From Petrimonas sp. IBARAKI (GTDB lineage Bacteria; Bacteroidota; Bacteroidia; Bacteroidales; Dysgonomonadaceae), in assembly GCA_002356435.2 (NCBI GenBank), contig AP018040.2, forward strand, positions 2,418,001 to 2,482,000: DNA of 64,000 nt, in the 5' to 3' direction. This document shows positions 8,529 through 23,447 of the stretch, one piece after another (position 1 is the first letter of the stretch; the number at the start of each line of letters is the position of its first letter). The notes under the pieces were generated by a model that was not told the DNA's origin, ran no database searches, and was given only the letters and a program-made list of their open reading frames with translations. The translations under genes were made by a program, and so were the position numbers.

Positions 8529-9365
8529 ATGGACAACTTAACATTCACTGCATTCGACACCGAAACAGCAACTAGTCATAGTGCGAGTATTTGTCAGATT
8601 GGATTTGTTGTTGTTAGAGAAGGACAAATCACAAGCGAAAAATCATATCTTATTCAGCCGCCGGGCAATGAATATGAAGCTCGACACTCTTGTATTCATG
8701 GAATTGATTCATTAAGAACAAAAGATAAACCTTTATTTCCTGAGGTTTGGGAAAATATTAAAGATGAATTTATAAGTTCACTACTTGTAGCACATAATGT
8801 AAGTTTTGATATAAACATATTAAATTCAACTCTTGCATATTACAATTTGCCAAGACCACAATGTAATTGTGATTGTACTTATCAGCTTTCTGGATTAAAA
8901 TTAAAGTCTCTCGCTGAGTCTTTAGGAATTGTAATGACGAAGCATCATGATGCTCTTTCAGATGCCAAAGCTTGTGCCCAAGCCTATTTGTTTCTTAAGC
9001 AAGGGATTAAACCAAATCTAACTTTAATAAGAGAATATAAGAATTCAAACCCTTTTGCTGGACATGAGAAACTTACAGGAAACATTCTTAAACCGGATTT
9101 GAATGTTGAGAATATTTTAAATCCATTTTACGCAAAAAAAGTAGTATTTACAGGGATTCTGCAAACCATGACAAGAGATGAAGCGGCAAAAAGAGTTAAA
9201 GATTTGGGAGCTGATATCGATACTGGTGTCACTAAACGAACAGATTTTGTTATCGTTGGACAAGGCGCAGGACCTTCAAAATTGAAGAAAATTGAAGACC
9301 TAAATTTGTCGGGCTTCAAAATCCGAATTATTATAGAGGACGATTTCTTAAATATGATAAAATAA
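8529..9365 (+). CDS. DnaQ-like 3'-5' exonuclease fused to a BRCT domain
   Basis: A 278-residue two-domain protein. Residues 1-160 are a DEDDh exonuclease: D10 and E12 in FDTET, D94 in HNVSFD, and H140 and D145 in HHDALSDA. This is the DNA polymerase III epsilon-type proofreading or exonuclease fold. Residues about 198-278 form a BRCT domain (KKVVFTGILQ, then GADIDTGVTKRTDFVIVG), like that at the end of bacterial NAD-dependent ligases. Stand-alone DnaQ-BRCT proteins are known in Firmicutes and Bacteroidetes; their role is poorly defined. The DUF2075-like nuclease-helicase gene follows after 78 bases on the same strand, so the two may act together on DNA, possibly in defence. Both domain calls are strong; the role is inferred. 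Confidence 0.88.
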   Translation: MDNLTFTAFDTETATSHSASICQIGFVVVREGQITSEKSYLIQPPGNEYEARHSCIHGIDSLRTKDKPLFPEVWENIKDEFISSLLVAHNVSFDINILNSTLAYYNLPRPQCNCDCTYQLSGLKLKSLAESLGIVMTKHHDALSDAKACAQAYLFLKQGIKPNLTLIREYKNSNPFAGHEKLTGNILKPDLNVENILNPFYAKKVVFTGILQTMTRDEAAKRVKDLGADIDTGVTKRTDFVIVGQGAGPSKLKKIEDLNLSGFKIRIIIEDDFLNMIK

Positions 9366-9443
9366 GAGCTGCGGGCAAGTAAAAAACATTACTGTTAGTA
9401 ACAGAAATGCTCCAAATATATGTGAATTCGCTTTTATAAGACT

Positions 9444-11423
9444 ATGCTAAATTATTATTATAAAGACTCAATCTGTTCATTCTTAACAAAGAGTGTTGAT
9501 CAGGTAATAGGTGAAATTACCATATCGAATCAATTTGATTCCAATTTAAATCAGAATCATTCATGGGTAGCTGAAATTAATTGTTTACAAAAGGCCCTTC
9601 AAGGATTGGAAGGCACTATTTTCTTTGAATTCTCTATTCCTCGAATGGGAAAAAGAGTGGATACATTGATCATCATTGAAGGCGTAATCTTTGTTGTTGA
9701 ATTCAAAGTAGGAGAGCATAAATATAACCAATCCAGTGTAGAACAGGTATGGGATTATGCACTGGATTTGAAAAACTTCCACGAGCCAAGCCATCAAGCA
9801 CTGTTAGTGCCTATTTTAGTAGCAACAGAAGCAAAGAACATATTCAGTGAGATTGTCACTACCTCTCATAACGACAATCTGATTCTTCCAATCAAAACCA
9901 ACGGGGAAAGTTTGAAAATCATTATACATGCTGTATTGGATTTTTATGATGAAATCCAAACTGTTGACCCTACCGGTTATGCTGCTGGAAGGTACTCTCC
10001 CACCCCTACAATCATTGAAGCTGCAATCTCACTCTATAAGAACCACACCGTAGATGAGATTACGAGAAGTGATGCAGATGCAACAAATCTCTCCAAAACA
10101 ACTGACACAATCTCTGAAATTATCACCCAAGCAAGGGAGAATAACAAAAAAATTATCTGTTTTGTCACCGGAGTCCCTGGTGCAGGGAAAACACTTGTGG
10201 GATTGAAAGTTGCGACTACACACTTGGATGATGAAGGTGGAGAAGCAAGTGTTTATCTTTCAGGGAATGGTCCATTGGTGGCCATTCTACAAGAAGCGTT
10301 GGCACGTGATAAGATCAAAAATGAAAAGGAGAAAGGGGTCACTTTGACCAAAGGGAAAGCCAAGTCGAGCGTCAAAACATTTATACAAAACATCCATCAT
10401 TATCGAGATAGTTATCTTGTAGATCCTACCGCACCATACGATCATGTGGCCATTTTTGACGAAGCACAAAGGGCGTGGAATAAAGAGCAAACGGTCTCCT
10501 TCATGAAACGAAAAAAGAACAAACCTGATTTTGATCACTCGGAGCCTGAATTTTTGATTTCCTGTCTGAATAGGCATGAAGATTGGGCAGTTATTGTTTG
10601 TCTCGTGGGTGGTGGTCAGGAAATCAATACGGGCGAAGCCGGAATTTCAGAATGGTTGGCAGCTATAAAGAATTGGTACCCACATTGGAGTGTCCATATA
10701 TCACCGAATTTAACTGATTCTGAATATTCAGCAACCGATGCTATTGCAGCACTAAGCAATGTAACCGAAGTGCATCTCAATCCCGATTTACATCTATCCG
10801 TCTCCATGCGTTCATTTAGAGCTGAAAACTTTTCTCTTTTTGTGAAAAATATGTTGGATATCCAAAAAGAAAAAGCAATTGAAACGTTCAATCAAGTCAA
10901 AGAGAAATACCCTATCGTGTTGACAAGAGATCTGAAAAAGGCAAAACAATGGCTGAAAGAGAAGGCTAGAGGTAGTGAAAGGTATGGCATAGTGGTTTCT
11001 TCGCAAGCGCAGCGACTTAAACCCTATGCAATTGATGTAAAATCGCCGATGAATCCGATTCACTGGTTTTTAAATGGGAAAGATGATGTGCGTTCCTCGT
11101 ACTTCTTGGAAGATGTAGCAACAGAATTTCATGTACAAGGATTGGAGTTAGACTGGGCCTGTATTGCTTGGGATGGCGATTTGAGGTATGCTAACGACGG
11201 ATGGAAAACTTATGAGTTCAGAGGAAGTAAATGGCTAAATATCAAGAAAGAAGAGAGAAAACAATATTTAATCAATGCTTACCGTGTATTACTGACCCGA
11301 GCAAGACAAGGTATGATCATCGTTGTTCCTGATGGTAATTCAGAAGACTCAACAAGAAAGCCGGAGCATTACGATGCAACGTTCAATTATTTAAAAAGTT
11401 TAGGGATTCCTGTAATTTCGTAG
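9444..11423 (+). CDS. PD-(D/E)XK nuclease fused to SF1-like DUF2075/Schlafen-type helicase
   Basis: A 659-residue protein. The N-terminal part carries a nuclease-like motif: D73 in RVDTLII, E86 and K88 in VVEFKVG, and a downstream Q101 in EQVWDYA, which fits a PD-(D/E)XK fold. The ATPase region has Walker A GVPGAGKT (243-250) and Walker B VAIFDE (335-340). Further on are a CLVGGGQEI segment, a QGLELDW segment, and the C-terminal arginine motif VLLTRARQG, as in superfamily 1 helicases and the DUF2075 family. It is probably a cytoplasmic nucleic-acid translocase with nuclease activity. Its neighbours (exonuclease-BRCT upstream, toxin-antitoxin genes downstream) suggest a defence role, which is inference. 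The domain calls rest on motifs read by eye. Confidence 0.85.
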   Translation: MLNYYYKDSICSFLTKSVDQVIGEITISNQFDSNLNQNHSWVAEINCLQKALQGLEGTIFFEFSIPRMGKRVDTLIIIEGVIFVVEFKVGEHKYNQSSVEQVWDYALDLKNFHEPSHQALLVPILVATEAKNIFSEIVTTSHNDNLILPIKTNGESLKIIIHAVLDFYDEIQTVDPTGYAAGRYSPTPTIIEAAISLYKNHTVDEITRSDADATNLSKTTDTISEIITQARENNKKIICFVTGVPGAGKTLVGLKVATTHLDDEGGEASVYLSGNGPLVAILQEALARDKIKNEKEKGVTLTKGKAKSSVKTFIQNIHHYRDSYLVDPTAPYDHVAIFDEAQRAWNKEQTVSFMKRKKNKPDFDHSEPEFLISCLNRHEDWAVIVCLVGGGQEINTGEAGISEWLAAIKNWYPHWSVHISPNLTDSEYSATDAIAALSNVTEVHLNPDLHLSVSMRSFRAENFSLFVKNMLDIQKEKAIETFNQVKEKYPIVLTRDLKKAKQWLKEKARGSERYGIVVSSQAQRLKPYAIDVKSPMNPIHWFLNGKDDVRSSYFLEDVATEFHVQGLELDWACIAWDGDLRYANDGWKTYEFRGSKWLNIKKEERKQYLINAYRVLLTRARQGMIIVVPDGNSEDSTRKPEHYDATFNYLKSLGIPVIS

Positions 11424-11599
11424 TACTCCCTGTTAAAAAATACGCATATTACAAACAGGACACAATATTACTGAATGTCATTACATCGGTAAAGTGTTAC
11501 TGAGGAATTAAGATTACTTCAGCTTATATTACGCTGTCTTATCCCAGATATCCATTTAGTTTTCAATAAGCATACTACGCAAAAATACAAAAAAACACA

Positions 11600-11887
11600 G
11601 ACAACGATAAATATTATGTGCGGGTTGATCATACCCATGAGCGCCAAGATAAAAACTGTCTACTCTCTGCCGGACTCGGTACTGATCAACGAAACCACGA
11701 CCGATGAACACGGTGAATTTGCATTCACAAATCTCCAAAGCGTAAACAAAATGCTGAAGTTCTCCGTCGACGGGTACAAAGAAATCTCGTTTCGCGCTTT
11801 GCCGGAACAGAATGTCAAGCTCCGGGGAGAGGCCAAGAAACCTGAAGAGCTGGCCGTAAAGTAAAAGCAGTTGACTTTTATGAAAAA
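11600..11887 (+). pseudogene. Repeat copy A: internally deleted copy of the small CarboxypepD_reg-like gene
   Basis: This stretch is nearly identical to the intact gene at 16490-16816 but lacks its first codons and the signal-peptide start; homology begins near GCGGGTTGATCAT (about 11619). It also lacks 48 internal bases (16 codons, in frame). What remains could be read from 11616 to 11864 as 82 residues, ending in the same PEELAVK tail. It shares the 58-base core (11774-11831) with three other copies. Its downstream flank (AAAGCAGTTGACTTTTAT) resembles that of copy C. Probably non-functional. Confidence 0.8.
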
Positions 11888-12019
11888 AAATGAACGATTT
11901 TTTAGGTTCTTCGTCACTTTTGGTGGTCATCCCCCATCAGGAAAGTACTACTTTCTTTCTAGGTAACTCAAAACTCGCCCTTCCATTACCGGTTACCTGC
12001 AAAGTGACTATAAGCAAAG

Positions 12020-12667
12020 TTATACTCGTATCTCCACAAAATCCAATTTTATCAACTCCCACTCTTTACCTTTTAAGCAGATGGGATCAATATCCTCATC
12101 GGCAGAAGTAAAGTCTGTAAAATTAGCAAAAATTTGATCCCGATCATGAGTATATTCATGTCGTTGTTTATGTAGTTCTAACATTTGAGGGAAGGAGTAA
12201 GTATTCAAAAGTTCGTGTAAGTCCCAAAAATCTTTTTTCCTTCCACCACGAGAAACAACATCGACTTTCATTGCAACAACATCATCAAGACTAGCAATTC
12301 GAATATTATCTATCACATCACATGGATTAAAAATTTCATCATGGTAATATAAATCAACTTTTATATTTTCATCTATTGATTCTCCAACATAGTATGAACG
12401 ACCAAAACCGATAATATTTGATGTGTCTGTACAGTAATAATATTTGTAGTTATCTCGAAAAAACTTTTCATAAACAGAGAAATCCAAACTACCATAAAAA
12501 GCATTGGTAAACAAATCGATATCAACCGAAATTCTATGCCCTAAACGTAAACTAAGTGAAGTTCCACCAACCAAATAAAAAGGCTCAAATATAGGGTTAG
12601 CCATAATCTCTTTGAGAATCTTTCTCATCAAGGGAGTAACCGTTTCATAATGTAGTTTGATAGCCAT
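12020..12667 (-). CDS. AbiEii/AbiGii-type nucleotidyltransferase (candidate toxin)
   Basis: A 215-residue protein with the AbiEii-family nucleotidyltransferase signature. The GG-T-S motif lies in GGTSLSLRLGHR (34-45), followed by the metal-binding Asp pair in SVDIDLF (47-53); a later KVDVVSRGGRKKDFWDLHEL segment is also typical. AbiEii toxins transfer nucleotides to RNA targets and serve in type IV-like toxin-antitoxin or abortive-infection modules. The gene follows a HigA-like antitoxin gene by 3 bases on the same strand, so the two form one operon. The pairing with an XRE/HigA protein rather than an AbiEi antitoxin is notable. The target is unknown. Confidence 0.85.
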   Translation of the reverse strand: MAIKLHYETVTPLMRKILKEIMANPIFEPFYLVGGTSLSLRLGHRISVDIDLFTNAFYGSLDFSVYEKFFRDNYKYYYCTDTSNIIGFGRSYYVGESIDENIKVDLYYHDEIFNPCDVIDNIRIASLDDVVAMKVDVVSRGGRKKDFWDLHELLNTYSFPQMLELHKQRHEYTHDRDQIFANFTDFTSADEDIDPICLKGKEWELIKLDFVEIRV

Positions 12668-12670
12668 TGT

Positions 12671-13105
12671 CTAATTTGATAGATTATAATATCGGGTAAT
12701 TTCTTCTATTTCGTCTTTGCTTCCTCTTTCAAAAACACGTTTGATAACTGCATTTTTATATTTAGCCCAATTAATTTTATTGAAATCAGTATCCCAAAAT
12801 AAAGATTTGCGAATGTGGGGAGCTTCTGTATAAATACTAGCTAAATCTTTTTCCTTGTATTGCTTAATATCATAGTGAGTTTGAAGAATAGCGAAAAAGC
12901 CTTCTTCATACCCTAATATCTGATCTATTTTTAAGGCTTGCTTAGTAGTCAAACTACGCCTACCTGCGATAATGGCATTAATAGTTTGAAATGGAATACC
13001 TGTCTCATCAGCTAACGCACGTTGGGTGAGGTGCTTCTTTTTCAATTCCCTTTCAATAAATTTCCCAGGATGAATACCTTTTATTATGTCGATAAGATTA
13101 TTCAT
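12671..13105 (-). CDS. HigA-like XRE-family antitoxin/repressor
   Basis: A 144-residue protein. It has a HigA-type helix-turn-helix near residues 12-60 (HPGKFIERELKKK, LTQRALADETGI, INAIIAGRRSLT), then a C-terminal extension of about 75 residues. HigA proteins bind their own promoter and neutralise a partner toxin. The AbiEii-like gene starts 3 bases after its stop. The upstream region has a -7-like element and a perfect 7-base inverted repeat, consistent with autorepression. Cytoplasmic. The antitoxin function is inferred from fold and context. Confidence 0.82.
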   Translation of the reverse strand: MNNLIDIIKGIHPGKFIERELKKKHLTQRALADETGIPFQTINAIIAGRRSLTTKQALKIDQILGYEEGFFAILQTHYDIKQYKEKDLASIYTEAPHIRKSLFWDTDFNKINWAKYKNAVIKRVFERGSKDEIEEITRYYNLSN

Positions 13106-13120
13106 AAATAATTCTTTCTA

Positions 13121-13142
13121 CAAAAATAAACAATTTTGTTTA
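13121..13142 (-). promoter_or_regulatory. Promoter -7 element and overlapping operator palindrome of the toxin-antitoxin pair
   Basis: On the minus strand, TATTTTTG (13121-13128) matches the Bacteroidetes -7 consensus TAnnTTTG and lies just upstream of the antitoxin start at 13105. A perfect inverted repeat, TAAACAA-TT-TTGTTTA (13127-13142), overlaps its upstream edge. A repressor bound there would block the promoter, as expected for autoregulation by the HigA-like protein. No good -33 TTTG is visible. Confidence 0.5.
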
Positions 13143-13258
13143 CATTTGGTTTGTTATATCAAAATAATTCCTACCCTTGTAACCTTCTCTTTTTGTAGGA
13201 CAGTCCCAAGTTAGACAAAACAATTTGCGTAAAAGGCCGGTGGAAATGTACCTGACAA

Positions 13259-13498
13259 CCGCTTAGTTTCCAGTGAAAAGAAAAAAGCGGGTTGATCATC
13301 CTCATGAGCGCCAAGATAAAAAACTGTCTACTCCCTGCCGGACTCGGTACTGATCAACAAAACCACGACCGATGAGCACGGTGAGTTTACATTCACAAAT
13401 CTCCAGAGCGTAAACAAAATGCTGAAATTCTCCGTCGACGGGTATAAAGAAATCTCGTTTCGCGCTTTGCCGGAACAGAATGTCAAACTCCGGGGAGA
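13259..13498 (+). pseudogene. Repeat copy B: decayed copy of the small CarboxypepD_reg-like gene
   Basis: This copy begins with the flank CCGCTTAGTTTCCAGTG, shared with copy C, then jumps at an A-run straight into GCGGGTTGATCAT, so the first coding part is missing. An extra base in an A-run (AAGATAAAAAACTG) shifts the frame. The 58-base core lies at 13441-13498, and the copy stops abruptly at CTCCGGGGAGA. Twelve bases later the stop codon of the minus-strand ATPase gene begins. It is non-coding. Confidence 0.8.
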
Positions 13499-13509
13499 TC
13501 AGATTATAT

Positions 13510-14670
13510 TTATACGACTTTTTTCAAAAAATCACTCAACCCGCAAACTTCCACATCATTTTTAAATGGATAAGATGCTGATACGGGAGAAACAATATAT
13601 GTTTTATCCGGTTTTGTGGTTTCTATAGCTCTCCAAAAGCCTTTGGTCACCTGTGGTGCCGATGAGGCTTTACATTCTACCGCTATCGTTCGGGAACCCC
13701 TCTCAATAAGCAAGTCTAACTCATCCCCTGTAGCACTGCGATAAAAAGAAAACTTACAATCTCTCAATGAAGAAATGATGTTTTCAATTACAAATCCTTC
13801 CCAAGATGATCCGAAAACAGGGTTGCCCATTAGTGAATTGAAATCATCCACTTGTAGCAGCCTATGTAATAACCCACTATCTCTCACAAAAATTTTTGGG
13901 GATTTAACCAGACGTTTCTTGATATTCTTTTCAAATGGCGGTAGCGAACGGATAATAAAGGTCTGTTCCATCAGGTCGATATACCGGCGAATAGTTTGAT
14001 AGGTTACACCTAGCGATTCTCCCAATTTGGACGAATTAAAAAGTTGCCCTTGATTGTGCGCACACATAGTCAGCAGACGACGAAGTTGCAATGCGGGAAT
14101 TTGAAATCCGAGCTGTGGAATATCCCGTTCTACATATGTTCTAAGGAAATTTTCTCTCCAAAGTACACTTCCTTGTTCAGATGATGCGAGATAGCTATCA
14201 GGATATCCTCCACGAAGCCAGAACTTATTCAATTCAAAATCTATGTTTTGCTCAACTTCTTCAATTGTAAAGGGTGTGAGTTCAATAAGCCCGACTCTTC
14301 CGGCTAGCGATTCTGACGTTTTCTGTATAAGGTCCTGCGAAGCAGATCCAAGCAAAATGAACCGTCCTGGACGACGGTGACGGTCTATTTCACTTCGTAA
14401 GACAGAAAAAAGTTCCGGTACTAACTGAATCTCGTCCAAACAAATTGTTACATCCTGATTAGCCTGGAAGAATAACATAGGCTCTCTCAACTTGTTCAAG
14501 TCATCCAGGTTCTGAAGGTCCAAATATAGATAGGCATTCGAATTTTGATAGAGCATCTTCGCCAAGGTGGACTTTCCGCATTGCCTTGGGCCTAAAATGA
14601 CAACCGCAGGAAATACGCTTAGATTCTCTTTTACAAATGTTTCTATTTTTCTGTCAATCAGATTTTGCAT
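13510..14670 (-). CDS. AAA (AAA_14) ATPase with C-terminal DUF4143 domain
   Basis: A 386-residue protein if started at the ATG at 14668-14670; an in-frame ATG at 14727 would add 19 unlikely residues. It has Walker A GPRQCGKST (27-35), Walker B ICLDEIQL, and a sensor-like ILLGSASQ segment. The C-terminal DUF4143 domain contains a nuclease-like strand (ATGDELDLLIERG, then IAVECKAS) that resembles a PD-(D/E)XK core. These ATPases are common in gut Bacteroidetes and archaea, often in multiple copies; their biological role is not established. It lies between repeat copies B and C. A relic of a second copy of its 3' region lies at 16379-16419. Confidence 0.88.
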   Translation of the reverse strand: MQNLIDRKIETFVKENLSVFPAVVILGPRQCGKSTLAKMLYQNSNAYLYLDLQNLDDLNKLREPMLFFQANQDVTICLDEIQLVPELFSVLRSEIDRHRRPGRFILLGSASQDLIQKTSESLAGRVGLIELTPFTIEEVEQNIDFELNKFWLRGGYPDSYLASSEQGSVLWRENFLRTYVERDIPQLGFQIPALQLRRLLTMCAHNQGQLFNSSKLGESLGVTYQTIRRYIDLMEQTFIIRSLPPFEKNIKKRLVKSPKIFVRDSGLLHRLLQVDDFNSLMGNPVFGSSWEGFVIENIISSLRDCKFSFYRSATGDELDLLIERGSRTIAVECKASSAPQVTKGFWRAIETTKPDKTYIVSPVSASYPFKNDVEVCGLSDFLKKVV

Positions 14671-14736
14671 ATCATAAATACAATTTCTATTTTGCACAAA
14701 TGTAGTGAAAGTATTTAAAACTACCAAAAGAGACAG

Positions 14737-14960
14737 CCGCTTAGTTCCCAGGGAAAGGGAAAAAAGAAAACTATTGTAACCGGATAAAGAGAATTGAAGT
14801 CTTATGATTGTAACAAATAAAAATCAAGCAAGATGGTACAAAGAAATCTCGTTTCGCGCTTTGCCGGAACAGAATGTCAAGCTCCGGGGAGAAGCCAAGG
14901 AACCTGAAGAGCTGGCCGTAAAGTAAAAGCAGTTGGCTTTTATAAAAAAGTAGAATGTCG
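14737..14960 (+). pseudogene. Repeat copy C: promoter and tail of the small gene fused by a deletion
   Basis: The upstream flank (through ATGATTGTAACAAATAAAAA to the start codon region) matches the intact gene at 16490, but after GGTACAAA the sequence jumps to the gene's last third. The 8-base sequence GGTACAAA occurs in the intact gene both at the start codon (16492-16499) and inside it (16725-16732). Copy C is therefore the product expected from a 233-base deletion between these direct repeats. The 58-base core lies at 14835-14892, and the PEELAVK tail is kept. It is non-functional. Confidence 0.85.
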
Positions 14961-15006: not shown

Positions 15007-16227
15007 TTATTCGGTCCTTCCAGTATATGCATCAACGCCAGATTTGCTTAATGGTTGAGCGAAGAACTTCTCGGCAGCTTTACTGATTTCGGCAAGCCAT
15101 GGCTGTCCTCCTCCGGCGGATTGGACCACCCAGAGCTTAAGCTCTTTCTTGTGCCAATTGACGGAACAGTTAGTGCCCCAGGCACCACCATGACCAAACC
15201 AAGCGTCTTCGCTGTCCTGTTCTGGTGCTGACAAGCCGAGGGAATAGCCGCCCAGACCCTTGGGACGGGTGGAAAGAGCGAGAAGATTCTTCACGGTTTC
15301 TTCTTTCAAGATGCGCACGCCATTCTCTCCCAAGCCAAGATTCATCAGCATCTTATAGAACTTCAGCTGGTCATCGGCGGTAGTCCAGAGACCCGCACCG
15401 GCAGAAGCAAATACATGGGAGTCATTATAAGGCCGTTGCTGCCATGGCATTTCTTCACGCCACTCAGCTGGAGCGTTCTCTTTGTTCTCATAGAGTTCTA
15501 TCTTGTTCTTAAGCTGTTTGTCGGTAGGCCAGAACCATGTGGACTTCATTCCCAAGGGATCAAGCACCTCCTGCTTGAGATATACCTCCCACTTCATCCC
15601 TGTGACGACCTCAACCACAGCTGCACCAATGTCAATTCCCGTATTGGAATAGAGCTCGCGGGTACCGGGCTCGAACATGATGGGCGATGCGGCAGCGATG
15701 GAGGCTGTCTGGCGAAGAGGAGCTCCTCCGGACCATCCGCCACCCCTGACGTCGGAGCGCTTGGCACTAATTTCGAAGGGGAAGCCTCCAGTATGGTTGA
15801 GCACCATACGGATGGTAAGGACGTTTTTGGCCTTACGAAGGGTCTTGACACTGTCATTTGCAGCATCCAACACCCATAATTCCACAAACTCCGGAAGATA
15901 CTTTGAAACAGGATCGTCGAGTGAAATACGGCCCTCTTCCACCAGCTTGGCGATTGTCACTCCGCAGAAGCCTTTTGTCTGTGAACATTGCATGAATACA
16001 TTGTCCATCTTTATTGGGCGCTTTTTTGATACGTCGGCATAGCCTATGCAGCAGGTTTCCTGCACGCCGTCCTTGTAGAATACACTAATGGCACCGGCCA
16101 ACTGACCACTGTCCACGTAGGGTTGCAGCACTGTTTTTGCATAACTTGTCTTGGAGTCTTTCGGTTCATTCTTGACTGTAGCTGATAAACAGAACACAGC
16201 AATCAGCAAAAAAATCGTTTTCTTCAT
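15007..16227 (-). CDS. Secreted serine hydrolase of the class C beta-lactamase/penicillin-binding family
   Basis: A 406-residue protein with an N-terminal signal peptide (about 1-18). It has the active-site SxxK as S82-QT-K85 in QCSQTKGF, the YxN motif as YSN in ELYSNTG, and an HGG triad in FGHGGAWG replacing the KTG of true beta-lactamases. This pattern fits EstB-like esterases or peptidase S12 family proteins as well as beta-lactamases, so resistance should not be assumed. Predicted periplasmic. It stands alone between repeat copies C and D on the opposite strand, like an independent cargo gene. Confidence 0.88.
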   Translation of the reverse strand: MKKTIFLLIAVFCLSATVKNEPKDSKTSYAKTVLQPYVDSGQLAGAISVFYKDGVQETCCIGYADVSKKRPIKMDNVFMQCSQTKGFCGVTIAKLVEEGRISLDDPVSKYLPEFVELWVLDAANDSVKTLRKAKNVLTIRMVLNHTGGFPFEISAKRSDVRGGGWSGGAPLRQTASIAAASPIMFEPGTRELYSNTGIDIGAAVVEVVTGMKWEVYLKQEVLDPLGMKSTWFWPTDKQLKNKIELYENKENAPAEWREEMPWQQRPYNDSHVFASAGAGLWTTADDQLKFYKMLMNLGLGENGVRILKEETVKNLLALSTRPKGLGGYSLGLSAPEQDSEDAWFGHGGAWGTNCSVNWHKKELKLWVVQSAGGGQPWLAEISKAAEKFFAQPLSKSGVDAYTGRTE

Positions 16228-16378: not shown

Positions 16379-16419
16379 ATGGATAAGATGCTGATGGAGC
16401 ACTGCGATAAAAAGAAAAA
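16379..16419 (+). pseudogene. Relic of a second AAA/DUF4143 ATPase gene
   Basis: Two short pieces match the ATPase gene in the same order and orientation. ATGGATAAGATGCTGAT (16379-16395) equals 13566-13582, and AGCACTGCGATAAAAAGAAAA (starting at 16398) equals the sequence starting at 13732. In the ATPase gene they are about 150 bases apart; here they are nearly adjacent, just upstream of the intact small gene. This is the footprint of a deleted ATPase copy. Confidence 0.7.
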
Positions 16420-16489
16420 AAGGAAAACTATTGTAACCATATAAAGAGAATTGAAGTCTTATGATTGTAACAAATAAAAATCAAGCAAG

Positions 16490-16816
16490 ATGGTACAAAA
16501 AATTCTCTTTTCTATTCTTCTAAGCGGGTTGATCATACCCATGAGCGCCAAGATAAAAGGTACTGTTTCCGATAGTAACAACAATCCCATTCAGTACGCC
16601 AAAGTGGCTGTCTACTCCCTGCCGGACTCGGTACTGATCAACGAAACCTCGACCGATGAGCACGGTGAGTTTGCATTCACAAATCTCCAGAGCGTAAACA
16701 AAATGCTGAAGTTCTCCGTCGACGGGTACAAAGAAATCTCGTTTCGCGCTTTGCCGGAACAGAATGTCAAGCTCCGGGGAGAGGCCAAGGAACCTGAAGA
16801 GCTGGCTGTGAAGTAA
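16490..16816 (+). CDS. Repeat copy D: small secreted CarboxypepD_reg-like protein, intact
   Basis: A 108-residue protein with a signal peptide (about 1-20, ILFSILLSGLIIPMSA) and one carboxypeptidase-regulatory-like beta-sandwich (GTVSDSNNNPIQYAKVAVYS, then TDEHGEFAFTNL). That domain is normally the N-terminal module of much larger Bacteroidetes outer-membrane beta-barrel or TonB-dependent proteins. Here the frame stops right after the domain, so this is probably an N-terminal fragment of such a protein, or a free-standing domain. It is the only uninterrupted one of four copies. A strong terminator follows at 16843. Confidence 0.65.
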   Translation: MVQKILFSILLSGLIIPMSAKIKGTVSDSNNNPIQYAKVAVYSLPDSVLINETSTDEHGEFAFTNLQSVNKMLKFSVDGYKEISFRALPEQNVKLRGEAKEPEELAVK

Positions 16817-16842
16817 AATCGGCTACTCTTCCCTCCCACTCT

Positions 16843-16880: not shown

Positions 16881-17245
16881 TTCTTTATCTTGTCGGGGCT
16901 TGGGGAAGACAGATTTTTTAATTTGCAATAAAAGGAGCTTTTCTGACAAATGTTTCATTTCACATGACATTACTCAACAAGCAAATTACTTTTATTCAAA
17001 CATTTATTTATAAAATCTTTTTATATCGAAAGATATTTATTAGCTTGCAAAATTGCATTATCAAGATTTGGGAAACGGAGCGTGGGGATAATCTCAAGAA
17101 TTGCGTACAAGTTACTGTAGATAAGCTAAACCAAGAAGATCACCATGGAAAATTAATGTAGCGGGAAATGATTAAATAGTCATTGTATCAGCATTTGTTA
17201 AATTAGAGATAAAATGACGTTAAAGTAAACCTGTAGGTTGATATT
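16881..17245. other. AT-rich intergenic region upstream of the TAC-like operon
   Basis: About 365 bases without a supported gene. A 65-codon frame at 16964-17161 has no family features and looks like chance in AT-rich DNA. The 3' end probably holds the promoter of the toxin-antitoxin-chaperone-like operon, but no clear -33/-7 pair is visible. Confidence 0.5.
17228..17239. promoter_or_regulatory. Possible antitoxin operator
   Basis: A short inverted repeat, AACCT-GT-AGGTT, ends 6 bases before the start codon of the candidate toxin. It could be bound by the HTH antitoxin of the operon. With five-base arms it could also be chance. Confidence 0.3.
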
Positions 17246-17785
17246 ATGAAAATTGTTACTACCTTTGTAGAAAATTTATTCACTTTTTGGTATAAAGGAG
17301 TTTCCAAAGACGAGCTTGCATTTCAATTCAGCAATTGGAAAGATCCGGAGTTTCTGTACAATTTTTTTAAATTCAATTACAAAGATCTTCATCGATCTAT
17401 CTGGAAGTACATTTCTATAGAATATGCAATAGATAAAACAATTCAAGATGCTTTAGAATTTGAAAGCGAATTTCTGGATAATCATGAAATAAATCTAGAA
17501 GAACGATTCAAACCTCTAAATGATTTACAAACTTCATTCATCAATTTGAATAAAAGTAAATGCTATGGCATGAATGCTCCCAGTTGGTTAAGGCTATATG
17601 GACTGCGTGTTGAGAAGGGTGTTTACGTGATTACAGGAGGAGCTATTAAACTCACACACAAGATGGAAGAAAGGGCGCATACCATGGAAGAACTTATCAA
17701 ATTAGAAAAAGGACGAAACTTTTTAATGAAAGAGAATGTTTTTGATGGTGACGGACTCGTTGATTTCATTGAATTTCAACTTTGA
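17246..17785 (+). CDS. Candidate toxin of a toxin-antitoxin-chaperone-like operon (family not recognised)
   Basis: A 179-residue cytoplasmic protein with no signal or membrane segment. I cannot assign a named family. The N-terminal 100 residues look mostly helical and polar/aromatic. The C-terminal part (about 115-160: LRLYGLRVEKGVYVITGG, then IKLTHKMEERAHT) has alternating strands, a GG turn and a following basic/acidic helix. That layout resembles the RelE/HigB toxin core, where a strand ending in a Gly turn is followed by K and a helical tail. It is the first gene of three, tightly followed by an XRE antitoxin gene and a SecB-like gene. The order toxin-antitoxin-chaperone matches Mycobacterium HigB1-HigA1-SecB(TA). 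The toxin role is inferred from this order. Confidence 0.6.
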   Translation: MKIVTTFVENLFTFWYKGVSKDELAFQFSNWKDPEFLYNFFKFNYKDLHRSIWKYISIEYAIDKTIQDALEFESEFLDNHEINLEERFKPLNDLQTSFINLNKSKCYGMNAPSWLRLYGLRVEKGVYVITGGAIKLTHKMEERAHTMEELIKLEKGRNFLMKENVFDGDGLVDFIEFQL

Positions 17786-17790
17786 TAATT

Positions 17791-18234
17791 ATGGGAAAAA
17801 GTTTAGATAGATTAAAGGAGCTTGCTGCCGGGAAAATGTCGTCTTGGCAGGAGGAAGCCAATTGGTACAGACAAAATAATGGATGGTTAAAACAATCTTC
17901 CAAAATAGCTTTTCGTATCCTTAGCGAATTGGATGAAAAAGGATTATCGCAGAAGGAATTGGCATTGAGAATGAATGTGTCTCCGCAATATGTTAGTAAG
18001 ATAGTAAAAGGTAAGGAGAATCTATCGCTCGAGACCATATGGAAAATAGAGGAAGCTTTGGGTATTACCCTCATCTCTGTGAACGGAAACGTACAGTATG
18101 TTTATCCTGAAACAATAACGTATAATGAGTCATATACGAGAATTCCATTATCTAAGAGTTTGAGTACCCGGGTGAATGATGATTATGTCAACTATAAAAA
18201 TACTTTCCAAAACAAGGATGATAATGTTGCATGA
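17791..18234 (+). CDS. XRE-family HTH antitoxin with C-terminal extension (HigA/ChAD-like)
   Basis: A 147-residue protein from the ATG at 17791; an upstream TTG at 17782 is less likely. A helix-turn-helix domain occupies about 41-95 (LDEKGLSQKELALRMNVSPQ, then VSKIVKGKENLS). A 50-residue tail follows, rich in Tyr, Ser and Asn (VQYVYPETIT, then NDDYVNYKN). In TAC systems the antitoxin has a C-terminal chaperone-addiction (ChAD) segment that makes it depend on the SecB-like chaperone, and this tail is in the right place for that. It starts 5 bases after the upstream stop and overlaps the downstream gene by 4 bases, indicating translational coupling. Confidence 0.8.
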   Translation: MGKSLDRLKELAAGKMSSWQEEANWYRQNNGWLKQSSKIAFRILSELDEKGLSQKELALRMNVSPQYVSKIVKGKENLSLETIWKIEEALGITLISVNGNVQYVYPETITYNESYTRIPLSKSLSTRVNDDYVNYKNTFQNKDDNVA

Positions 18235-18677
18235 AAGAAACTATTAACTTCAGGTTAGTAAGACTGAGTACTGATCAGTTTGGTATACTGAGAGATATGT
18301 ACGAACCCGATGCGCCGATAGGAGTAAATACACAATTAGCGTTCGGTGCCGGGGAAAAAGAGGAAATTGTAGTGGTTTCTGCTTCGTTCCGTTTTGAGTC
18401 GAATAATAAAACTGCGCCCTTTATCATCCTTGAAACAAAAGTGTATTTTCAATTAAAACCCGAATCGTGGAAATGCATGTACGATGAAGAAACGAACGAG
18501 CTTGTTTTAGAGAAAGGGTTCGCACGTCATCTCAGTGTAATAGTGGTAGGCACGTCCAGAGGAATTCTACATAGCAGGACTGAAGGAACAGACCTGAATC
18601 ATGTCGTTTTACCGCTGATAAACGTTGAGGAAATTATAAAAGAAGATGTGATTATAAAATTAGCCGATAAGCTCTGA
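18231..18677 (+). CDS. SecB-like chaperone (candidate TAC chaperone)
   Basis: A 148-residue soluble protein. Its layout follows the SecB fold: a first strand (INFRLVRLS), two long hydrophobic strands (EEIVVVSASFRFES and PFIILETKVYFQL), a helix (RHLSVIVVGTSRGIL), and a C-terminal LPLINVEEI segment equivalent to the L-P-N element of SecB. SecB proteins bind unfolded chains, and TAC-type SecB copies specifically protect the cognate antitoxin. No secB-partner secretion genes lie nearby, whereas an HTH antitoxin overlaps its start by 4 bases. The fold match is by eye and moderate; the role is inferred from the operon. Confidence 0.6.
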   Translation: MKETINFRLVRLSTDQFGILRDMYEPDAPIGVNTQLAFGAGEKEEIVVVSASFRFESNNKTAPFIILETKVYFQLKPESWKCMYDEETNELVLEKGFARHLSVIVVGTSRGILHSRTEGTDLNHVVLPLINVEEIIKEDVIIKLADKL

Positions 18678-18775
18678 AGAGTTTGGGAGGGTAAGCCCCG
18701 AAATGAATTACTATGAAGAAAGAATAAGTGGTTGTTCAAAAGTAATTTTTTTAGAAACAGTTAAATTCAAAACAA

Positions 18776-19315
18776 ATGCGAAAAATATCACTTTTCATTG
18801 CAACCAGTCTGGATGGCTACATTGCAAAACCTGATGACGACCTTAGTTTTTTAAGACTCATGGAAAAGGAAGGCGAAGACTATGGTTATGAGGAATTTAC
18901 AAACACAATTGATACAGTAATTGTTGGAAGAAGAACCTACGATTATGTGCTTGAAGAAATAGGTCCATCTCATTATGACAACGGACAACGAGATGTTTAC
19001 GTCATAACAAGAACTGAAAGGCCGCAAGTAGGGAGAACAATTTTCTATACAGGAGATATAACCGAACTTGTGAAACGACTAAAATCTGAAAAAGGGAAAA
19101 ATATTTATTGTGACGGTGGTGCAGAAATAATAAATGAACTATTGAAACATGACTTGATAGACGAGTTTATAATTTCAGTCATACCTGTTTTATTGGGGGA
19201 TGGTATCAAGCTCTTTAAAGATGGAAGACCTGAACAAAGACTTGAATTTATCACAGCAAAAACTTTCGAAACGGGCTTGATACAACTGTACTATAGGAGG
19301 GAAAAAACACACTAA
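18776..19315 (+). CDS. RibD C-terminal/DHFR-like reductase family protein
   Basis: A 179-residue protein of the dihydrofolate reductase-like RibD C-terminal family (YyaP/YwjB group). Signature segments are MRKISLFIATSLDGYIA at the N-terminus, VIVGRRTYDYV (about 58-68), and the nucleotide-binding GGAEIINELL followed by IDEFIISVIPVLLGDGIKLF. Members reduce pterin- or riboflavin-type substrates with NADPH; the physiological substrate of the YyaP group is unknown. Monocistronic by spacing (98 bases after the SecB-like gene). Confidence 0.88.
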   Translation: MRKISLFIATSLDGYIAKPDDDLSFLRLMEKEGEDYGYEEFTNTIDTVIVGRRTYDYVLEEIGPSHYDNGQRDVYVITRTERPQVGRTIFYTGDITELVKRLKSEKGKNIYCDGGAEIINELLKHDLIDEFIISVIPVLLGDGIKLFKDGRPEQRLEFITAKTFETGLIQLYYRREKTH

Positions 19316-22008: not shown

Positions 22009-22080
22009 ACTTGACGATGCAAATATCCTCCGCTTAAACCGACATTATGAATCCCGGAGGAGACAAGTAAGGTGATGTAG

Positions 22081-22155
22081 TGAACTGTGTTGGATTCGAA
22101 CCAACGACCTCTGCCCTGTCAAGGCAGCGCTCTAAACCAGCTGAGCTAACAATTC
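22081..22155 (-). tRNA. tRNA-Val (anticodon GAC)
   Basis: The minus strand folds as a full cloverleaf. The acceptor stem is GAATTGT/ACAGTTC with one G-U pair. The D arm is GCTCAGCTGGTTTAGAGC. The anticodon stem-loop is CTGCC-TTGACAG-GGCAG with anticodon GAC (22118-22120 on the plus strand). The T arm is GTTGG-TTCGAAT-CCAAC. The discriminator is A and no CCA is encoded. It lies at the right part of the accessory island, 150 bases from the IS110 transposase gene. Confidence 0.92.
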
Positions 22156-22304
22156 GGGCTTGCAAAAATACAACATTTCTTCAAACTTACATAAAAAAGC
22201 TGTTTTTATATACGCCTTTCGATAAAAATCGGGACCGTGACTGTTCTATAGATGATAAAGGTGCTTAAAGGCACAATTGTTTCACTTTTAAAATTTTATC
22301 TTTT

Positions 22305-23447
22305 ATGAGAACAGTCAGCGGCCTCGACATCCACAAAGATAGCATATTTATGTGCATTTTGGACGAACAAGGCAAAAAGACAGAAGAAAAATTTGGTGTA
22401 ACTACACGTGAAATAAAGCGAATGTCCTCTGTACTGCATACACATTACGTGAGTGATATTTGTATGGAAAGTACCGGTATTTATTGGATTCCGATTTGGC
22501 GGTTGCTTGAAAACGATTTCTCTCTTCATCTGGTAAACCCTCAGTTTCTTAAACAATTGCCCGGACGCAAGAGCGATGTGAAGGACGCGCAATGGATTGC
22601 AACCGCGTTGCTTAAAGAATTAGTCAGAGACAGTTTTGTTCCGGACGGGAACATTCAGCGACTTCGTCAATATGGGCGTCGCATTAACGAGATAAACAAA
22701 GATTTGGTTCGCTGCGAGCAACGTATCGACATGCTTCTACAACGCTGCAACATTCGTTTGAGCAATTATGTTTCACGCACCAAAAACAAGAGTTACCGTA
22801 AAGTAGTGGATGCCCTGATTGCGGGAGAGACATCAGCCGATGCGCTGGTCAAACTCATTCATGGACGCACGGTTAACCGATACGGGAAATCAGCCGTACA
22901 CGAGGCATTGGAAGGGTGTATTTGTGAAAGTGACAGCGATTTATTGCAGCAGTACACTCAAAGCTTTGACATGCTTCAACTCCAAAAACAACAATGCCTT
23001 GATGCCATGGTGCGCATGTGCAATCAACTCTACCCCGAAGCCTTCTCGTTTTTACTGACCGTGCCGGGTATAAAGCTTGTCTCGGCAGCCATTATCATTT
23101 CGGAAATAGGCGATAATATGGAACTTTTTGCTACTGCAGCAGCCCTGGTGTCATGGGCAGGACTCCGACCGCGCAATGATGAAAGCGCAGGAAAAATTAA
23201 GAGCCGCCAAATAACACACGGGAACAAGTATCTGCGTAAAGCCTTGATGGAATGTGCCAATGGTGCTGCCCGAACGAAAGGTTCGGTGTTTTACTTCCGG
23301 TTTTGGCATTTGAAAGGGATGAAAAAACATCATAACGCCATTATCGTAGCTATCGCCAGGCAGATACTTACCATCATATGGACACTGCTTTCCAAAAAAG
23401 AAAACTTTGATCAAATGTATCGGATAAAGAAAAAAACTGCTTCTTAA
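22305..23447 (+). CDS. IS110-family transposase (DEDD_Tnp_IS110 + Transposase_20)
   Basis: A 380-residue, full-length transposase. The N-terminal RuvC-like DEDD domain has D8 in GLDIHKDS, E55 in MESTGIY, and D91 and D94 in KSDVKDAQ. A helical middle region follows, then the Transposase_20 domain from about residue 245 (LTVPGIKLVSAAIIISEIGD), with LVSWAGLRPRN and the serine region ARTKGSVFYFRF. In this family a non-coding bridge RNA guides both donor and target recognition. The frame is intact, so the element may be active. Confidence 0.95.
   Translation: MRTVSGLDIHKDSIFMCILDEQGKKTEEKFGVTTREIKRMSSVLHTHYVSDICMESTGIYWIPIWRLLENDFSLHLVNPQFLKQLPGRKSDVKDAQWIATALLKELVRDSFVPDGNIQRLRQYGRRINEINKDLVRCEQRIDMLLQRCNIRLSNYVSRTKNKSYRKVVDALIAGETSADALVKLIHGRTVNRYGKSAVHEALEGCICESDSDLLQQYTQSFDMLQLQKQQCLDAMVRMCNQLYPEAFSFLLTVPGIKLVSAAIIISEIGDNMELFATAAALVSWAGLRPRNDESAGKIKSRQITHGNKYLRKALMECANGAARTKGSVFYFRFWHLKGMKKHHNAIIVAIARQILTIIWTLLSKKENFDQMYRIKKKTAS

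Follow-up and report, generated by a model that had tools for sequence, protein, structure and literature searches.

The operon at positions 17246-18677 of the Petrimonas sp. IBARAKI stretch analyzed here (64,000 nucleotides, hereafter the window) is best explained as a HigBA-SecB-like module of the type II toxin-antitoxin-chaperone (TAC) class whose toxin is divergent, an interpretation to which we give a probability of about 0.85. Its computed support consists of gene order, conservation, a predicted SecB fold, a helix-turn-helix (HTH) domain, covariation of the antitoxin tail with the chaperone gene and a remote relationship of the toxin to HigB. A Bacteroidetes TAC module had already been proposed in a preliminary description of this DNA, and the SecB fold, the tail that tracks the chaperone and the place of the toxin on the HigB side all support that proposal.

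A three-gene operon that recurs as a self-contained cassette

The genome carrying the operon is a single contig of 3.69 Mb in which gene A is present once. Genes A, B and C are co-directional, all on the forward strand. Gene A (17246..17785, 179 amino acids) encodes the putative toxin, placed as a divergent protein of the HigB/Gp49 branch by an AlphaFold2 model, Foldseek and a chain of profile comparisons. Gene B (17791..18234 from its ATG, 147 amino acids) encodes a putative antitoxin of the XRE/HTH_3 type, and gene C (18231..18677, 148 amino acids) encodes a predicted SecB-like TAC chaperone. Genes A and B are separated by 5 bases (17786-17790) whereas genes B and C share 4 bases (ATGA), so the tight packing initially described holds.

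An HTH gene lies downstream of the toxin gene in 133 of the 136 toxin-family loci that we collected, and gene C is present in 45 of the 136. Two of the three loci that have no separate HTH gene end at a contig edge; the third is a B-C fusion (L097:1057-1932), in which antitoxin and chaperone share one 291-amino-acid frame, either by natural fusion or by loss of a stop codon, and the toxin is split in two. The three-gene arrangement recurs as a unit, far from chance, and a SecB-like gene beside a toxin-antitoxin pair in a three-gene operon, as expected of a TAC module, is found here in order, spacing, relatives and fold. At another locus (L098:1498-2374) an antitoxin-chaperone pair occurs with a repeat-rich open reading frame upstream and no recognisable toxin.

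The distribution of the operon is scattered. Gene A was found in 7 of the 101 genomes searched (the window's own and six relatives), and the toxin family as a whole in 32 of the 396 Bacteroidota genomes sampled. At the DNA level, the three closest orthologous operons resemble the window (76.8-87%) at positions 17196-18668 alone, and the flanks are unrelated, which indicates that the operon is a self-contained cassette. Six bases upstream of the toxin ATG lies an inverted repeat, AACC-N4-GGTT (17228..17239), whose arms are invariant in the four orthologous operons (window, L008, L009 and L010), while the sequence farther upstream is unconserved. This repeat is likely the operator of the operon.

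Gene C is predicted to encode a SecB-like chaperone

By sequence, gene C is not a member of the SecB family PF02556: neither its product nor its 20 relatives matched this model in sequence searches. No meaningful Pfam or NCBIfam family was matched either, although the protein does match the PADLOC model PDC-M64C (E 7.6e-10). Against the PDB, single-sequence phmmer and profile searches returned nothing useful and only the fold search succeeded. The AlphaFold2 model, built from 13 sequences (pLDDT 93.8, pTM 0.87), shows a long helix after four long strands, and the predicted elements (E7-19, E30-41, E46-57, E65-75, H77-83, E90-93, H95-117) come in the order of SecB, in agreement with the strand/helix layout first noticed. 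The preliminary description had made its reading of the third gene hinge on structure prediction, and a SecB fold is what the prediction returned: the first Foldseek match in the PDB was 5mtw (E 3.2e-4, probability 1.00), the M. tuberculosis SecB-TA Rv1957 bound to the ChAD tail peptide of HigA1, followed by H. influenzae and E. coli SecB (1fx3, 1ozb and 1qyn, probability 1.00), with TM-scores of up to 0.59-0.65. Consistent with this, the gene C profile matched SecB-like proteins gathered through PF02556 at 91%, against at most 1.2% for unrelated and reversed controls. Model and profile together indicate that gene C encodes a SecB-like chaperone.

Other SecB-like genes were encountered during these searches. 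No protein of the window genome exceeds the PF02556 SecB cut-off. A second SecB-like gene of this genome (G000:C1:546471; L131:509-1818) matches PF02556 at E 4.6e-5 and PD-T4-9_C at 8e-9, and comes after a HEPN-like 140-amino-acid gene (motifs SVAHCSYYSC and RSSADY), which has no confident Pfam match, and a 156-amino-acid gene. The same trio is found in L130 and L128 and is a possible HEPN-type TAC. In L126, L129 and L132, SecB-like genes adjoin ADP-ribosyltransferase-like genes with a GQGIYFYEN-type motif, and these probably belong to relatives of CmdTAC from the same order, Bacteroidales. Chaperones of the gene C type also occur in operons with other toxin families; on a 48 kb IMG/VR contig (L123:4151-5420) one comes after a HEPN-like gene and a middle gene that is unrelated, so HigB-like toxins are not the only partners of this type of chaperone.

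Genomic neighbourhood and a possible role in phage defence

A cluster of defence candidates occupies positions 8529-14727 of the window, with a DEDDh exonuclease, a Schlafen-group-3 helicase (PDC-S41, 9444-11423), AbiEii with an HTH/DUF6922 gene (12020-13105) and an AAA_14/DUF4143 ATPase (PDC-S01, 13510-14673). Pieces of a carboxypeptidase-regulatory-domain gene (16411-16818 and 14754-14928) are repeated several times in the window genome and near the locus in G008 and G744, at 89-98% identity. Farther along, at 22080-23447, a tRNA-Val gene on the reverse strand adjoins an IS110-like transposase gene. The stretch from a serine hydrolase gene (15007-16227) to this tRNA gene differs in length from that of G008 and is likely an insertion hotspot.

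Phage defence may be the main job of the module, with the chaperone as its sensor: a phage structural protein would compete for the chaperone, the antitoxin would be degraded and the toxin would abort the infection, by analogy with CmdTAC and E. coli HigBAC. This reading refines the TAC explanation and is not an alternative to it, and we consider its chances to be about even. In CmdTAC a phage capsid protein captures the chaperone (PMC11618068), E. coli HigBAC is reported to respond to the major tail protein of lambda (PMC11980606), and MqsRAC gives phage defence (PMC9519451). CmdTAC and MqsRAC both protect E. coli. At the locus itself, the products of genes B and C match PADLOC PDC-M64 models, the neighbours are defence candidates and the operon has a sporadic distribution and is shared as a cassette; related TACs, moreover, are found on the IMG/VR viral contigs L122-L125. 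Against this, all of the neighbouring systems are themselves candidates here, and a role in general stress or addiction would leave the same genome pattern.

Gene A most likely encodes a remote HigB-branch toxin

The product of gene A has no meaningful Pfam or NCBIfam assignment, and no RelE, HigB or Gp49 model appeared among the 25 families listed of the 37 that were matched by 49 toxin-family members at E<=1. To this extent the toxin is unrecognised, as had been stated, but PADLOC already holds a distant relative in its candidate-defence system PDC-M64. A profile search of the PDB gave nothing useful and a viral structure library gave no significant match. The AlphaFold model shows one compact fold (pLDDT 93.6, pTM 0.89), for which the best six Foldseek matches in the PDB were HigB chains (6af3/6af4), at an E value of 0.07 that is below significance.

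A direct profile comparison (hhalign) of the gene A family, A4, with Gp49 also fails (1.3%), so that only a chain through two other families connects gene A to Gp49. A4 matches A7, the PDC-M64-type toxins, at 95.8%; A7 matches A8, the short toxins of C-containing operons, at 88%; and A8 matches Gp49 at 76%, with negative controls (unrelated and reversed alignments) at 2.1% or less. Single A8 members match PF05973 at 0.005-0.007, and a Gp49 protein from the same order (Bacteroidales) matches HigB 6af3/6af4 by phmmer at 1.7e-4. Since the fold search and the profile chain are partly independent and reach one protein, 6af3/6af4, the link of gene A to HigB is supported. Gene A is thus most likely a toxin of the HigB branch, through a remote relationship, and the RelE-like character first attributed to it becomes a place in the RelE superfamily, on its HigB side.

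A conserved toxin core spans residues 114-150 (WLRLYGLRV..YVITGGAIKLT..MEERAHTMEEL; 17585..17695, forward strand). R116, Y118, G131, G132, K135, T137 and M140 are invariant in 49 gene A relatives, and in the sister family A7 the counterparts of R116, Y118, G131/132 and K135 show little or no variation. Residues 9-146 of gene A align with A7, columns 29-120 of which are matched in turn to the initial and central portions of Gp49/HigB. On this evidence, the normal N-terminal half of the HigB fold lies within the first 100 residues of gene A, where a hairpin at the N-terminus and an inserted helical segment enlarge it. The original suggestion that about 100 N-terminal residues form an additional domain is not supported, given the single compact fold and the alignment of residues 9-146 on A7.

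Gene A could be something other than a ribonuclease, either a RelE-fold protein with a different target (for instance tRNA, or gyrase, the ParE target) or a protein whose fold merely looks like that of HigB. The significance of HigB in single tests is low, ParE and BrnT are among the weaker fold matches, and the conserved R116/Y118/K135/R143/H145 do not make a textbook RelE site. However, all of the best six fold matches go to HigB, the same HigB at which the sequence chain arrives, and we hold these other activities to be a minority prospect.

An aromatic-rich antitoxin tail tracks the chaperone gene

Gene B encodes an HTH_3 protein (Pfam E 7.7e-16, residues 47-94) that also matches the PADLOC PDC-M64 model at 7.6e-18. 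The HTH is followed by a C-terminal tail of 52 residues, 7 of them aromatic (18076..18231, forward strand), which confirms the XRE protein with a 50-residue tail seen earlier and is a candidate ChAD region. In M. tuberculosis the C-terminal extension (ChAD) of the antitoxin imposes dependence on SecB, and chaperone-independent relatives do not have the extension (PMC5105189). The gene A toxin family has operons with and without gene C, so this rule can be tested by comparison.

Among A4 loci, the median tail length was 57 residues (22-143) in those with C (n=44) and 7 residues (1-64) in those without (n=79 of the 123 with enough downstream sequence); among A7 loci, the corresponding values were 52 residues (30-71, n=38) and 20 residues (9-55, n=7). 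When we scored as aromatic-rich any tail with at least three F, W or Y, a threshold picked after inspecting the data, such tails were present in 76 of 82 loci with C (41/44 for A4 and 35/38 for A7) compared with 4 of 86 without (3/79 and 1/7), that is, across about 170 loci in two toxin families. The aromatic-rich tail thus tracks the chaperone gene in both families, and the extension is missing from most C-less relatives. Fifteen C-less loci have tails of 30-64 residues, in which aromatics average 2.5% as against 10.5% in tails that accompany C.

Because the loci are related, the comparison was reduced to independent pairs on supported branches of the tree, four for A4 and six for A7. The aromatic tail changed along with C in 3.8 (A4) and 5.1 (A7) pairs on average and never in the opposite direction, which amounts to about nine of ten independent pairs in the expected direction. 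Taken singly, neither A4 nor A7 gives a median sign test value at the 0.05 level, and the threshold is post hoc; we therefore take this result as support and not as a clean p-value. A first, smaller analysis had been near-perfect, but its tree gave just four changes of chaperone state, and for this reason the sampling was widened to more genomes and to A7 as a second toxin family. The wider sampling brought the exceptions, long tails without C that mostly have few aromatics, and revealed that L220 and L226, first counted as C-less, both carry C.

The alanine in which many of the tails end was also considered as a degron. This idea was dropped, as two-gene antitoxins often end in A or V too and the last antitoxin codon lies in the ATGA overlap, which biases it, so that the terminal alanine permits no conclusion on a degron.

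Natural deletions

In a Bacteroidales MAG (L065), the HTH antitoxin stops three residues past the HTH core and runs into the last 30 residues of C, which means that a single deletion took the tail and most of the chaperone and left the toxin and the HTH. This joint deletion bears on the possibility that the operon is a simple toxin-antitoxin pair of two components, that the general or export chaperone next to it is unrelated and that the tail is incidental. C-less two-gene versions are common, as the 79 of 123 A-family loci attest, and C must therefore be dispensable for some toxins of the A family. Nevertheless, the loss of tail and chaperone together in L065, their covariation in two toxin families, the ATGA overlap and the HTH partner found upstream of strong C matches make such a chance association very improbable.

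A conspecific strain, G744, was compared by blastn of the window with L195 (G744:C1:3771800-3776700), and its operon is 100% identical over 1029 bp. Three separate deletions lie inside 2.2 kb of DNA that is otherwise 98.5-100% identical. One removes the upstream region and the first ~22 toxin codons (17050..17312) and has the 8-base repeat AGCTTGCA at both ends; another, inside gene C, causes a frameshift (18342..18513); and the last takes the start of the neighbouring RibD_C gene (18720-19212). The antitoxin frame is intact in G744 despite the damage to the toxin start and the chaperone. The deletions in L065 and G744, as single events, fit a TAC module, in that the chaperone is lost only alongside the tail or the toxin. 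That the window strain itself holds a decaying or non-functional remnant, as the broken G744 copy and an internal stop in the L007 toxin might suggest, is scarcely credible given that all three frames are intact in the window and that other genomes carry intact operons with toxins and chaperones 74-90% identical to its own.

Proposed mechanism and significance

If the operon is a TAC module, the product of gene A would be a HigB-like toxin that most likely cuts mRNA as a ribonuclease and is made together with the HTH antitoxin B, which would bind and block it. B would probably also repress the operon at the repeat upstream of the first gene. The aromatic-rich tail, presumably disordered, would leave B unstable on its own, and C, as a SecB-type tetrameric chaperone, would hold this tail and keep B folded and safe from proteases. 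Should C be drawn off, for example by unfolded or phage structural proteins, B would be lost to proteases, A would be freed and growth would stop. A bolder and rather doubtful extension is that the C-type SecB is a portable phage sensor of Bacteroidota that recognises the antitoxin tail alone and is exchanged among A4, A7, short Gp49-like toxins and the HEPN-like pair of L123, and that the 179-residue toxin is a distinct branch of the RelE superfamily whose enlarged helical half may give it a target unlike that of known HigB.

In the literature consulted, detailed studies of TAC modules are few and deal mainly with those of M. tuberculosis and E. coli. The novel elements here are the branch to which the toxin belongs, its relation to PDC-M64 as a sister group and the use of Bacteroidota loci to test the tail-chaperone rule by comparison. 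Natural variants (two- and three-gene versions, L065, and an intact and a broken copy in one species) make the model of chaperone addiction testable. If confirmed, the present reading would name a toxin family missed by curated libraries and suggest a function for part of PADLOC PDC-M64.

Comparison with known systems

The toxin finds its best fold matches, and the end point of its profile chain, in Gp49/HigB proteins (PF05973; S. pneumoniae HigB 6af3/6af4). These have about 115 amino acids, to which the window toxin adds an N-terminal hairpin, a helical insert and a last helix. CmdTAC (PD-T4-9) of E. coli has the TAC plan with a SecB-like third gene and a chaperone-dependent antitoxin, and its authors call TAC toxins variable (PMC11618068). 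CmdT is, however, an ADP-ribosyltransferase, whereas the window toxin has HigB-like best fold matches and no ADP-ribosyltransferase match in Pfam or PADLOC; likewise, the window chaperone did not match PD-T4-9_C in the PADLOC search, its relatives doing so weakly at 0.013-0.015. In the MqsRAC and HicAB-SecB TACs (PMC5105189, PMC9519451), other toxin types are likewise chaperone-dependent through a tail, but their toxin and antitoxin families differ from those of the window.

The PADLOC candidate PDC-M64, for which our literature search found no publication that names it, shares the three-gene layout and matches the window antitoxin and chaperone clearly (E values given above) but the toxin at just 0.0066 (PDC-M64A). 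In the sister loci L105 and L117, toxins and chaperone match PDC-M64 strongly. At the profile level that joins them, A4 is a separate branch, sister to the PDC-M64 toxins. Finally, HigB1-HigA1-SecB-TA of M. tuberculosis (Rv1955-Rv1956-Rv1957) has the same order of toxin, HTH antitoxin and SecB-like chaperone. The window toxin is longer than HigB1 (179 amino acids), remotely related to it and invisible to the Pfam RelE/HigB models, and the chaperone is 13-15% identical to Rv1957 in the structure alignment. ChAD tails are reported to be variable (PMC5105189). An antitoxin C-terminal tail is present in both systems, and Rv1957 with the HigA1 tail peptide is the best structural match of the window chaperone.
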